Assembly: GCA_001899305.1 (NCBI GenBank)
Contig: MKWL01000020.1
Location: 1 to 64,000, forward strand
Source of the DNA: Thiobacillus sp. 0-1251
Lineage (GTDB): Bacteria > Pseudomonadota > Gammaproteobacteria > Burkholderiales > Thiobacillaceae
DNA length: 64,000 nt
Reading direction: 5' to 3'
In this document: positions 43,027 through 49,493 of the stretch, one piece after another
How the letters are laid out: each line of letters starts with the position of its first letter
Position numbering within the stretch: position 1 is the stretch's first letter
Notes under the pieces: model-generated
The model's database searches: none
What the model was told of the DNA's origin: nothing
Seen by the model: the letters and a program-made list of their open reading frames with translations, nothing else
Position numbers and translations under genes: made by a program

Positions 43027-45720
43027 TCAGGCGGCCGTGTCCATCACCTGCGCCCACAGCGCCGTGACCGTGGCGCGTACGCTTTCCAGCGCAGCCGGCG
43101 GCACGCGGGCGTATTCCGCGCCGCTGAGCTTGATCGCGTGCTGTCGGCGGCGCAGTTCGCGATAGGCGTCGGCGGCAGCCTGGGCGAGGGGGGCGGGGAT
43201 CAGGCCGGCTGCACCGGCGCGCTGCAGCAGCGCGATATTGCCGACGTTGTCGGCGAGTTCGGGGTGGCCGGCGCTATGCCGCAGCACCAGATACTGCACG
43301 CAGAATTCGACGTCGACGATGCCGCCACGGTCGTGCTTGAGATCGAACAGGTCGGAATCGTTGACGTGGCCGGCGTGCATTTTCTCGCGCATCGCCAGTA
43401 CGTCCTCGCGTAGCTTGGCGGCATCGCGCGGGGCGCTCAGCACTTCACGACGCAGGCGCTCGAAGCTTGCGCCGATCATCGTGTCGCCGCAGACGAAGCG
43501 GGCGCGCGTCAGCGCCTGGTGCTCCCACACCCAGGCGTGTTGCAACTGGTAGTCGCGGAAGGCCTCGGTCGAGCTGACCAGCAGGCCGGAGGCGCCGTCC
43601 GGGCGCAAACGCAGGTCGGTTTCATACAGGATGCCGGTTGAAGTAAGCGTGCCGAGCCAGGTGTTGATGCGCTGCGCCAGCCGCGCGTAGATTTCCTGCG
43701 CGCGTTCGTCCGCATCGTCATAAAGGAACACCAGGTCGAGGTCGGAGGCGTAGCCGAGTTCCTTGCCGCCGAGCTTGCCGTAGCCGACGATGGCGAAGCG
43801 CGGCGTTTCGCGGTGGCGCGTCTTCAGGCCGGCCCAGCAGCGTGCCAGGGTTTCGTTCAACAGCGTGTCGGCAAGATAGGAGAGGTGGTCGGACAGCGCT
43901 TCCAGCGTCAGCCGCCCCGCCACATCCTGTGCGAGCAGATGCAGCGTCTGCACCTGCTTGAAGCGGCGCAGCGCATCCATCTGCGCCTCGGTGTCGCCAG
44001 GGTGGGCATCCAGTTCCTCGCGCAGCTGGGCGGCGAGCTGCGTCCAGTCGGGCGTGCTCATCAGGTGTTGCGGCGCGATCAGTTCGTCCAGCAGTTGCGG
44101 CTGCCGCGTGATCATCTGAGCAGCCCATGGGCTTGCCGCCAGCAGGCGTACCAGCTGGCGCAATGCCGCCGGATATTCGGCCAGCAGCGCGAGATACGTG
44201 GCGCGCCGGGAAACGGACTGGATGAGCGCGGCGAAGCGCTCCAGCGTGACCGCCGGGTCGGTCTGGCTGCCGATGACTTCGAGCGCTGGCGGCAGCAGGG
44301 CGTTGAGCCGGAGCTGCGTCGATTCGGGCAGCCGTGTGGTGTTCTGGCGCAAGGCGTCGAGCGTCGCCAGTACGCGCGGCGGGTCGTCGTAGCCGGCATT
44401 CTCCAGCAGCGCCTGGGTGGCGTCGGCGTCTGCGGTGCCGCAGCACACGGCGGTCAGCGGATGGCTGTTCTGGTCGGTCTGCGGTGCGGCGAATACCTGC
44501 TCGAAATGGCGCGTGACCTTATTCCGATGGCGGTCGAGCGCCGTCAGCATGGCCGTGTAATCGGGGAACCCCATCGCCTCGGCGAGCATGGCCTGCGATT
44601 CGGTATCGTCCGGCAGGAGCTGGGTTTGTGCGTCGTCGAGGTACTGGATGCGGTGTTCCAGCCGGCGCAGGAAATCGTAGGCGGCAGCGAGTTCCTGCTG
44701 CGCGTCGGCCGTCATCAGGCCGGTCTTCACCAGTGCGTCCAGCACGACCAATGTCGGTTGCTGCTGCAATGCAGCAATCTGGCCGCCGCGGATGAGCTGG
44801 AACACCTGCGCGGTGAATTCGATTTCGCGGATGCCACCCGGCCCCAGCTTGACGTTGTGCGCCATCTCGCGACGCGCGACCTCGCGACGGATCTGCACAT
44901 GCAGGTCGCGGATCGCGGCGAAGGCGCCGAAATCGAGGTATTTGCGGAACACGAAGGGCCGCACGATCTGCATCAGTTCGTCGTGTCGGCTGCCGGTGAG
45001 CGGGCGCGCCTTGATCCAGGCATAACGCTCCCACGGCCGCCCCTGCGCCACCAGGTAGTCTTCCAGCATCGCGTAGCCCATCGCGAACGGGCCGGATTCG
45101 CCCCACGGGCGCAGCCGCAGGTCGACACGGAAAACATAGCCGTCGGCGGTGTTCTCCCCCAGCGCGGCGGCGAGCTTGCGCCCCAGGCGGATGAAGAATT
45201 CGTGGTTGGAAAGCGGGCGGATCGAGGCGGACGGATCGTCGGCCGCGGTGTCGCCTTCCTCAGGGTAGAGATAGATGAGATCGATGTCGGACGACACGTT
45301 GAGCTCAAAGCCGCCGAGCTTGCCCATGCCGACCACGACCATCTGCTGTGGAATTCCGTTTTCGTCGCGCGGCTCGCCGTGGCGCGCGGCCAGTTCGGCG
45401 TGATGGAAATCGAGTGCGGCGGCAATGCACACCTCGGCCAGCGTGCTGTAGGTGGCCATCACCTCGGCGAGATCGGCCTGGTTCGCCAGATCGCGCGCGG
45501 TGACGATCAGCCATATCCGCTGGCGCAATTGCCGTAGGCGCTGGTGCAGGGCGGCCTCGTCGGCACAGGCAGGCTCGGCGAGAAAGGCCTGCATGGCCGC
45601 CCGGTCGAAGGCCTGGCCCAGCTGGCCTGCCACGGTTTCTGCCAGGTTCGGTTGAGCCGTCAGCAGGCGACGACCATAACGTGAACAGCGGGCAACGCGT
45701 TCAAGTGCAGGATGGCTCAT
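43027..45720 (-). CDS. glnE: Glutamine synthetase adenylyltransferase/deadenylyltransferase
   Basis: Controls glutamine synthetase by adding or removing AMP under PII control. The 897-residue protein has two nucleotidyltransferase domains. The N-terminal deadenylylation domain carries [20 protein letters not shown] (about 130-150) and the C-terminal adenylylation domain carries [22 protein letters not shown] (about 640-661), each followed by a helical GlnE/PII-uridylyltransferase-type domain. Both DxD active sites are intact, so both activities are expected. It is divergent from acs with a 53-base gap that must hold both promoters. Confidence 0.96.
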
Positions 45721-45773
45721 GGCTTGGATTAGAATCTGGGATTATCGCAACACTTTATCAGTGGAGAGACTGT

Positions 45774-47741
<1,968 letters not shown>

Positions 47742-47850: not shown

Positions 47851-48240
47851 ATGTCGCACTATCATGCAGTTGTCTGGCTCGATCACAACGAGGCGCGTGT
47901 CATGCACGTCAGCCCGGACGATGTCGAGAAATCAGTGGTCCATCCCGCCAACCCGCCGCGCCATCTTCAGCGCAAGCGCGGCTCGGTCAGCGGCAGTCGC
48001 CAGCCCGAGGACCAGCAGTACTACCACGATGTCGTGGAGGCCTTGAGCGGCGCCACGGAAATCCTGATCGTTGGACCGGGGCACGCCAAGCTCGAACTGA
48101 TCAAGCATATCCATGCACACGATCATGACCTCGTGAAAAAAGTCGTGGGCGTCGAAACCGTCGATCATCCCGGCGATGGACAACTTGTGGCCTTTGCCCG
48201 CAAGTATTTCGTGGCCAAGGACAGAATGCTGTCGCAGTAA
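47851..48240 (+). CDS. eRF1-domain-like small protein (so-called translational machinery protein)
   Basis: The 129-residue soluble protein matches a widespread proteobacterial family often labelled translational machinery protein. It begins with a short strand and WLDHNEARVMHV, has HH/HP-rich middle residues, then ILIVGPGHAKLELIKHI and the strongly conserved DHPGDGQLVAFARKYF. The fold resembles the third domain of eukaryotic release factor 1 / pelota. No function is established. A good AAAGGAA ribosome site precedes the ATG. It stands alone between acs and the riboswitch region. Confidence 0.8.
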   Translation: MSHYHAVVWLDHNEARVMHVSPDDVEKSVVHPANPPRHLQRKRGSVSGSRQPEDQQYYHDVVEALSGATEILIVGPGHAKLELIKHIHAHDHDLVKKVVGVETVDHPGDGQLVAFARKYFVAKDRMLSQ

Positions 48241-48410
48241 GGCCGTCGGGAAACGGTTTGTCGCGTCGTTCCAGGGCCCCCGAAAGGGGGCCTCGTCGTT
48301 CATGGGACAGGCTGTGGGCGACAGTTCTTCCCAACCGATTGATAAACCGGGGAATTGTTTTGGACGTCCGGCCTAAAGTCTGCCGATATTTCGTCGTTAC
48401 TGTAGATAAG
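48241..48410. other. Leader/promoter region upstream of the riboswitch
   Basis: No gene. A GGCCCCC-GAAA-GGGGGCC hairpin (48275-48292), with no T tract, may end the upstream transcript. A TAGATA hexamer at 48403-48408 is a possible -10 just before the aptamer. A GCCGATAT motif at 48382-48389 resembles a sigma-28 -10, but no properly spaced -35 is present. Confidence 0.4.
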
Positions 48411-48503
48411 TCGTACAAGGGCAAACCCGTCGCGAGGCGGGGACGCAAAGCTTCCGGTCTTGGTCGGTCTGCATCCGGGTCAAGATAGCGGGGCTGCCAG
48501 ATT
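48411..48503 (+). ncRNA. Cyclic di-GMP-I (GEMM-I) riboswitch aptamer
   Basis: The conserved core is present in order: AGGGCAAACC (48418-48427), a stem capped by a GCGA tetraloop of GNRA type, GGGGACGCAAAGC (48439-48451), CCGGTCT (48454-48460), a second variable stem, and ATAGCGGGGCTGCC (48485-48498). The last matches the Vibrio Vc2 AGGTAGCGGGGTTACC. The 3' side (CTGCCA, 48494-48499) can instead pair with TGGCAG (48513-48518), a likely switch between aptamer and expression platform. It precedes the small exported protein at 48564. Aptamer identification is firm; the sign of regulation is unknown. Confidence 0.9.
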
Positions 48504-48563
48504 TCAGATTGATGGCAGGCGTCGTTGCCCCGATTCAGGTGCAGTGTTGAACCAGGAGGCCCT

Positions 48564-48782
48564 ATGTCGCATCAATGCCCGTTCCCCGTCCGCTCCACCG
48601 ACAATCGCCGTTGCTACCGAACCGGCAGTGCGCCGGGATTCGTCCTGTGCCTGGCTGTGGTGGCCGCTCTCTCATGCTATGCCGGATTCAGCCATGCCGC
48701 GCCGTCCCACGCACTCCAGGCGGGGGTTTCCGGCGCTGTGCCCGCCTCCAGCCATCCTGCCGGACCGATCGCCGGCGGCTGA
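48564..48782 (+). CDS. Small exported protein controlled by c-di-GMP riboswitch
   Basis: A 72-residue protein with a strong ribosome site (AGGAGG at 48554-48559). It has a basic N-terminus, a hydrophobic core (about 24-41) and a probable signal-peptidase site near SHAA (44-46). The mature peptide would be about 26-28 residues of Ala, Gly, Pro and Ser with two His and no Cys. Three Cys lie upstream in the basic region and core. I recognise no family. It lies alone between the riboswitch and an intrinsic terminator, so the whole c-di-GMP-controlled unit encodes only this peptide. It might be a surface, matrix or signalling peptide, but nothing in the sequence proves any of these. Confidence 0.65.
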   Translation: MSHQCPFPVRSTDNRRCYRTGSAPGFVLCLAVVAALSCYAGFSHAAPSHALQAGVSGAVPASSHPAGPIAGG

Positions 48783-48821
48783 TGGCAGGCCGACCGCATA
48801 CGCTTTGCTCAGCAGAAGCCA

Positions 48822-48845
48822 GCGCCCCTCGGGGCGCTTTTTTTA
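48822..48845 (+). terminator. Rho-independent terminator of the riboswitch unit
   Basis: AGCGCCC / GGGCGCT stem (48822-48839) with a CTCG loop and a T run to about 48844. It ends the transcript of the small exported protein and touches the 3' end of the convergent FMN reductase gene. Confidence 0.85.
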
Positions 48846-49424
48846 TGGCTGGTCGGCCGAGCGCGCGAGCGCCGTCGTGGTTCTTACCAAATCCACCACC
48901 AGCGCGTGCAGCCGTGCAGGCGATTTCAGTGCCCCGTTCTCGGGGTCGAATGCGGTGTCGGCATGGGCCAGCGAGAACTGGCCGGGCAGCACCAGCACGC
49001 CCAGCGTGTTAAGGACCTGGCGCAGGTGGGGCAGCATGCGCATGCCGCCGAAGGTGCCGGGCGTGGCGGCCAGGATGGCGGCGACCTTGTTCTGGTAGGG
49101 GACCAGGCCCGATTCGCCCTGCCATTCGCGCGACACCCAGTCGAGCGTGTTTTTCAGCAGCGGCGGCATCGAGCTGTTGTATTCCGGGCTGGCGATCAGC
49201 AGGGCGTCGTGTTCCTTGAACAAGGCCTTCAGGCGCTGCGCATTGTCGGGCAGGCCGTCGCGCTCCTCGAGGTCGCCGTTGTAGAGCGGAAGCGGGTAAT
49301 CGGCCAGGTCGATCAGCGTGACGTCGCCGCCCGCGGCACGGGTCGCGTCCACCGCAACCCGGATGAGTTTCCGGTTCCAGGAATCGCGGCGGATGCTGCC
49401 GGAGAAAGCGAGAATCTTGGGCAT
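48843..49424 (-). CDS. NAD(P)H-dependent FMN reductase
   Basis: Flavodoxin-fold oxidoreductase of 193 residues. It has the FMN-phosphate loop GSIRRDSWNRKL near residues 9-20 and the ASPEYNSSMPPLLKNTLDW segment (about 78-96) typical of NADPH-dependent FMN/quinone/chromate reductases (YieF/ChrR/SsuE relatives). ATG at 49424 follows AAGGA; an upstream in-frame ATG at 49442 is weaker. The physiological substrate (quinone, chromate, azo compound or FMN) cannot be told. It is next to a pirin gene on the same strand, a common redox-stress pairing. Confidence 0.9.
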   Translation of the reverse strand: MPKILAFSGSIRRDSWNRKLIRVAVDATRAAGGDVTLIDLADYPLPLYNGDLEERDGLPDNAQRLKALFKEHDALLIASPEYNSSMPPLLKNTLDWVSREWQGESGLVPYQNKVAAILAATPGTFGGMRMLPHLRQVLNTLGVLVLPGQFSLAHADTAFDPENGALKSPARLHALVVDLVRTTTALARSADQP

Positions 49425-49493
49425 GACGTGTCCTTGCATCAAAAAGTGAGTGATTGTATCGGGGCCGGCCAGGGGGGTCGAAGCCCCAAAGGG

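Follow-up and report, generated by a model that had tools for sequence, protein, structure and literature searches.

The described systems closest to the locus considered here are the c-di-GMP-I (GEMM-I) riboswitches, the S8 subtilases and the extended signal peptides of autotransporters. Some relatives of the c-di-GMP-I class sense c-AMP-GMP (PMC7266159). The C. difficile protease ZmpI/PPEP-1, which frees surface proteins, is under the negative control of a class I riboswitch (PMC6366702). The full-length form of the Thiobacillus gene described below is alike in placing a class I riboswitch before a secreted protease (PMC6366702); however, ZmpI/PPEP-1 is a metalloprotease, whereas the Thiobacillus long form is a subtilase and the version in the window (the whole 64,000-nucleotide stretch of Thiobacillus DNA analyzed) has no protease at all. 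With the S8 subtilases (PF00082, PF22148), the window ORF has in common an N-terminus of ~47 aa and its genomic place, but neither prodomain nor catalytic domain. Autotransporters can carry an extended signal peptide region (ESPR), and the Thiobacillus leader resembles it in that a long conserved n-region comes ahead of the hydrophobic core and that different mature proteins follow, namely S8 subtilases and, elsewhere in the genomes of G016 and G008, a protein of 274–277 aa. Unlike an ESPR, the leader in Thiobacillus also stands alone, and the likeness noted here is one of layout.

Relative to the riboswitches modeled by RF01051 and RF03167, the window aptamer is alike in score, binding-core blocks and covarying stems; the aptamer itself shows no difference, and it is the target gene that is unusual. 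Our search of the open-licence literature found no report of an aptamer joined to a leader-only unit. The kind of riboswitch is already known; what is new is that the leader has been kept by itself. We consider it fairly probable, from comparative sequence analysis, that the leader-only ORF specifies a functional, selected leader under c-di-GMP-I control, which would most likely be a small inner-membrane microprotein.

The riboswitch and its control region

The aptamer occupies 48411–48502 on the forward strand, where the original prediction had recognized a c-di-GMP-I aptamer and proposed a covariance-model search. That search bears it out with both Rfam models, at 63.5 bits for RF01051 (cut-off 35) and 61.8 bits for RF03167 (c-di-GMP-I-GGC; cut-off 59), and the stems covary in relatives: genus-wide, across 28 distinct same-locus aptamers, 96.0% of stem cells are paired, and both-side changes occur in 7 of the 18 stem pairs as against 1.2 in shuffles. 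By these measures, the window riboswitch is an ordinary member of its class. RF03167 is present in 53/56 genus genomes (E<=0.001), above the cut-off in 44, and extends across the family to 105/117 genomes and 11/12 genera. In the aptamers of G024 and G019 (L069, L070), one stem pair has changed from C-G to U-A with compensation, and one A of the otherwise conserved CAAAG is replaced by U; these are possibly altered aptamers.

With either model, the aptamer is matched twice in the window genome (3.66 Mb, 24 contigs). The second match has a DUF1631 gene on each side (PF07793; E 3.5e-78 for the upstream gene and 1.1e-174 for the downstream one). The earlier statement that only a tiny exported peptide is controlled fits the window transcript; the other aptamer of the genome precedes a DUF1631 gene. 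A survey of aptamer neighbors in the genus covered the loci of 96 out of 99 aptamer places, and the commonest RF03167 partner in Thiobacillus is a DUF1631 gene (45 loci); our literature search for DUF1631 in connection with c-di-GMP found nothing. At one locus (L005:3423–8066, minus strand), the aptamer lies between two DUF1631 genes with a sigma28-like motif upstream. Five genus aptamers (L140, L147, L144, L135 and L152) precede a gene of ~99 aa that is DUF1540-like, an assignment made from one of the five proteins (PF07561, 8e-08).

Ahead of the aptamer lies a conserved block. In the clade of the four closest genomes (G000, G030, G001 and G055, to all of which the ORF end is common), 0 of the 30 columns of 48372–48401 are variable, compared with 47 of 130 in the upstream spacer. 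The block ends ~10 nt 5′ of the aptamer and contains, at 48374–48400 (+), the sigma28-like promoter candidate TAAAGTCT-N11-GTCGTTAC; of the 30 loci where an aptamer accompanies the leader gene, 21 match a regular expression for the motif 35–39 nt upstream of the aptamer. The consensus of sigma28 (FliA) is TAAAGTTT-N11-GCCGATAA, to which the window candidate is a partial match, its −10 part included. The DUF1631 aptamers have a better sigma28 match, for example TCAAGTTT-N11-GCCGATA, situated 71–75 nt upstream in 39 of 45. Two FliA-type sigma factors score above cut-off in the window genome, which also has flagellin-domain matches and 51 GGDEF matches; a search for the sigma28-like motif gave no match at its flagellin loci, and a scan of 48240–48900 for sigma70-type promoters found none. 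A sigma28-type promoter at 48374–48400 would place the transcription start at the 5′ edge of the aptamer, and the leader unit may depend on sigma28.

At the other end of the unit, an intrinsic terminator-like hairpin (48821–48838) with its T-run reaches to 48845 on the forward strand. It is the single such site in 48240–48900, and since shuffles of the region average 0.5 sites (sd 0.9), the hairpin alone is not beyond chance; its variable columns in the clade of four number 4 of 26, versus 24 of 47 just upstream. The anatomy of aptamer, single ORF and terminator-like hairpin bears out the predicted one-gene transcript, with each element at the place and of the description first given for it.

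How such an aptamer might switch is less clear-cut. The helix originally proposed would join CTGCCA (48494–48499) on the aptamer's 3′ side to TGGCAG (48513–48518), a span of 48494–48518 on the plus strand. Both sequences are present, but their pairing is not clearly above shuffles: the aptamer 3′ strand pairs with the downstream stretch at p=0.11 in the window and at p<0.1 in 6 of the 31 aptamer-bearing leaders scored (G022, G050 and G044 left out), with a mean pairing energy of −11.5 versus −10.3 for shuffled platforms. As the minimum free energy structure predicted for the window leader does not exceed shuffles in stability (z −0.28), we take no mechanism from it. A pairing of the Shine–Dalgarno sequence with the aptamer P2 strand, noticed by eye, was dropped, the letters of both differing at other loci.

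The leader with and without a protease

The ORF of 72 aa runs on the forward strand from an ATG at 48564 to a stop at 48780–48782, preceded by a Shine–Dalgarno-like AGGAGG (48554–48559). Its first 47 codons (48564–48704) make up the conserved leader, which consists of the n-region, a hydrophobic core at residues 25–43 and an A-x-A site, in agreement with the signal-peptide-like core expected of the small ORF; codons 48–72 (48705–48779) are an unconserved tail, the supposed mature peptide. The 72-aa ORF has no Pfam or NCBIfam match, and neither a prodomain nor an S8 catalytic domain. The ORFs serving as synteny markers are 45681–47741 (+) upstream, which we take to be acetyl-CoA synthetase-like (acs), and the convergent 48843–49442 (−) downstream, presumably FMN-reductase-like (fmnred). 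At the far end of the window, positions 1–91 match a 5S rRNA (43.8 bits) that is truncated at the window's 5′ edge.

Relatives of the ORF occur in 39 of the 56 genus genomes (E<=0.01), three of them weak with internal stops. Those three (G003, G027 and G015; E 0.001–0.006) were left out of the locus comparison, which comprises 36 genomes; G021, G047 and G051, in which fmnred either gave no match or falls at the end of a contig, lie outside it as well. The gene order glnE–acs–(host-attachment-like)–aptamer–X–fmnred–pirin–lysR holds in nearly all 36, as far as the contigs reach. What, then, is X? In 13 of the 36 it is a long protein of 605–617 aa (truncated at the contig end in G043 and in G041) that begins with the ~47-aa N-terminus of the window ORF. 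One of these, L084, is a subtilase with a fervidolysin-type prodomain and Ig-like domains (PF00082 1e-52, PF22148, PF17957), and the exact D, H and S motifs are found in 13 of 14 long sequences, G418 from another family included; G039 is without the exact D motif, and the leader of the G038 long form is divergent. In 19 of the 36, the window's included, there is a leader-only ORF of 44–84 aa, and three genomes (G009, G010 and G038) have both forms. Four more have a broken protease, with remnants after the leader (G014, G045, G050 and G044), and G048 has lost the start. The tails vary in length and sequence among lineages. The small ORF thus recurs in related genomes, as the original prediction had envisaged; because its N-terminus also heads a subtilase at the same syntenic place, an unrelated family is not supported.

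Beside the riboswitch-controlled subtilase of G009, G010, G038 and G039 stands a PEP-CTERM-like gene (L073:8479–9327; L095:3921–4769, minus strand; L088:6036–6740); of these proteins, the one from G009 (L073) was run against Pfam. Subtilase and PEP-CTERM-like neighbor may possibly form a protease–substrate pair. In G009 and G010, the short copy follows the PEP-CTERM gene and lacks its own aptamer.

An aptamer match accompanies 13/13 long forms and 12/19 leader-only ORFs, a tally of related genomes given without a statistical test. The aptamer is deleted or degenerate, below the cut-offs, in G040, G028, G031 and G022, all of which keep the promoter-like block and the leader; the leader-only ORF of G035 also has no aptamer match. 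The aptamer is the less fixed part of the unit. The unit as a whole is dispensable, since at the fmnred locus of 17 further genus genomes we found neither leader nor aptamer motif; the same was true of G008 and G016, and a host-attachment-like gene is nearby in 15 of these 19 loci, although some of the stretches are short. That the gene decays in some lineages follows from the four genomes with protease remnants and the lost start of G048. On a midpoint-rooted tree of the flanking proteins, Fitch parsimony gives 8 changes with the leader-only form at the root, and counting losses only yields 11 short clades, G048 among them; deep support in this tree is weak, and either the protease or the leader-only form may have come first.

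Outside the genus, a leader profile search reaches 38/117 family genomes and 2/12 genera. In the same place, between acs and fmnred, two sister-genus genomes (G112 and G113) have both an aptamer (65.8 and 61.4 bits) and a leader-only ORF (73 and 66 aa), with an upstream element that looks similar by eye. In an order-wide search with leader profile A3, 25 of 399 genomes matched at E<=0.01. Three of these are Thiobacillus; a convincing match is G418 (E 4.4e-15), which has the upstream element, an aptamer (64.5 bits), the leader and a subtilase; and the other 21 are at E 5.4e-4 or weaker.

We also looked over 40 aptamer loci from other genera, part of the family's aptamers, and recognized no further leader-only ORF among them. 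By eye, 13 of these aptamers precede DUF1631-like genes and six possibly shortened ones, three precede PilV-like prepilins and four precede large proteins with an LEPRLLMSADF motif (L289, L295, L308, L290, L292, L294 and L296 for the last two groups); the rest are mostly followed by other, partly secreted, proteins. At L311, the aptamer of another genus precedes a subtilase (PF00082 1.5e-45) with another signal peptide.

Selection on leader and tail

Substitutions in the clade of four, taken as simple counts without a tree model and small in number (10 leader changes), amount to 2 nonsynonymous and 8 synonymous in codons 1–47 (p=0.0014 against a neutral share of 0.706) and to 17 and 8 in codons 48–72 (p=1.0), a difference between leader and tail with a Fisher value of 0.022. 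In the pair G024/G019 the ratios are 3:9 for the leader and 5:4 for the tail, and in G009/G010 they are 5:6 and 6:4, the latter leader pair alone being unconvincing; pooled with both pairs, leaders stand at 10:23 (p=8e-7) and tails at 28:16 (p=0.14; Fisher 0.0056). Variable columns in the clade of four are distributed in the same region as 7/92 in the aptamer, 0/9 in the gap to the aptamer, 7/48 in the platform, 1/13 in the Shine–Dalgarno segment, 9/141 in codons 1–47 and 22/78 in tail plus stop. Pairwise w of the leaders has a median of 0.15 over 135 short-ORF pairs and 0.24 over 68 long-form pairs, some of the divergence possibly predating truncation. On these counts, the leader is constrained and the exported tail is neutral-like.

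This contrast bears directly on the product first proposed, a peptide that is secreted or displayed at the surface and whose mature part works extracellularly. The signal-peptide-like core and the A-x-A site speak for it, but a functional secreted peptide is not supported, because the mature part drifts as if neutral while the leader is held, and the tail differs among lineages in length as well as sequence; we now regard this product as very improbable.

Could it be the RNA itself that matters, or the translation of the leader as a process, as in a regulatory leader or small RNA? The transcript is short and closes with a terminator-like hairpin, and an GATTCAGG element recurs 5′ of the start codon in many relatives, both of which would suit such a role. 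However, leader dS is mostly near or above that of the flanking genes, although lower in some comparisons (e.g., G000/G030, 0.06 vs 0.18–0.33); since it is not generally depressed, constraint appears to act on amino acids. Together with the third-position location of 7 of the 9 variable leader columns and the convergent orientation of the downstream gene, this leaves an RNA-level role with only a slight chance.

A stronger competitor is decay, in which deletion of the protease domain would have left the riboswitch and the gene's 5′ end as a functionless, decaying remnant. The protease remnants of four genomes, the lost start of G048, the absence of an aptamer at 7/19 leader-only ORFs as opposed to 0/13 long forms and the unconstrained tail are all as decay would have them. 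It is harder to reconcile with a leader that is constrained after a truncation shared by the clade, with an invariant promoter-like block and with a leader-only form in the sister genus too, and we hold it unlikely, if well worth considering.

The leader as a possible stand-alone unit

The reading of the locus as a selected leader draws on the occurrence of one N-terminus on S8 subtilases (13/36), on 19 leader-only ORFs and on two in the sister genus, on the constraint over codons 1–47, and on the four genomes that have lost a recognizable aptamer and kept promoter-like block and leader. The locus would then be a Thiobacillus unit under a c-di-GMP-I riboswitch, whose transcription probably begins at the sigma28-like promoter. 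In the species group of the window, the gene would be reduced to its leader, a long n-region and one hydrophobic helix; the same segment would export a fervidolysin-like subtilase in sister species, and the stretch after the signal-peptidase-like site would be filler. The leader-only unit may be expressed in motile cells and modulated by c-di-GMP. Sequence comparison establishes what the aptamer is, the synteny, the N-terminus common to ORF and protease, the constraint that covers codons 1–47 and spares 48–72, and the invariance of the promoter-like block; sigma28 dependence, ligand binding, the direction of control, membrane insertion and a function of the leader product are inferred. As for the fuller picture of the leader as a gene in its own right, joined to a riboswitch and a flagellar-type promoter, selected while its tail drifts and alternating at one locus with a protease form, we see the chances as evenly balanced.

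If this is true, a signal peptide can persist after its exported protein is gone, or arise before it, and be selected as a stand-alone membrane microprotein, and a c-di-GMP riboswitch unit can gain or lose its effector domain while the control region in front stays as it was. The full-length form would offer a testable parallel, in sulfur-oxidizing bacteria, to the protease-and-adhesin arrangement of C. difficile.
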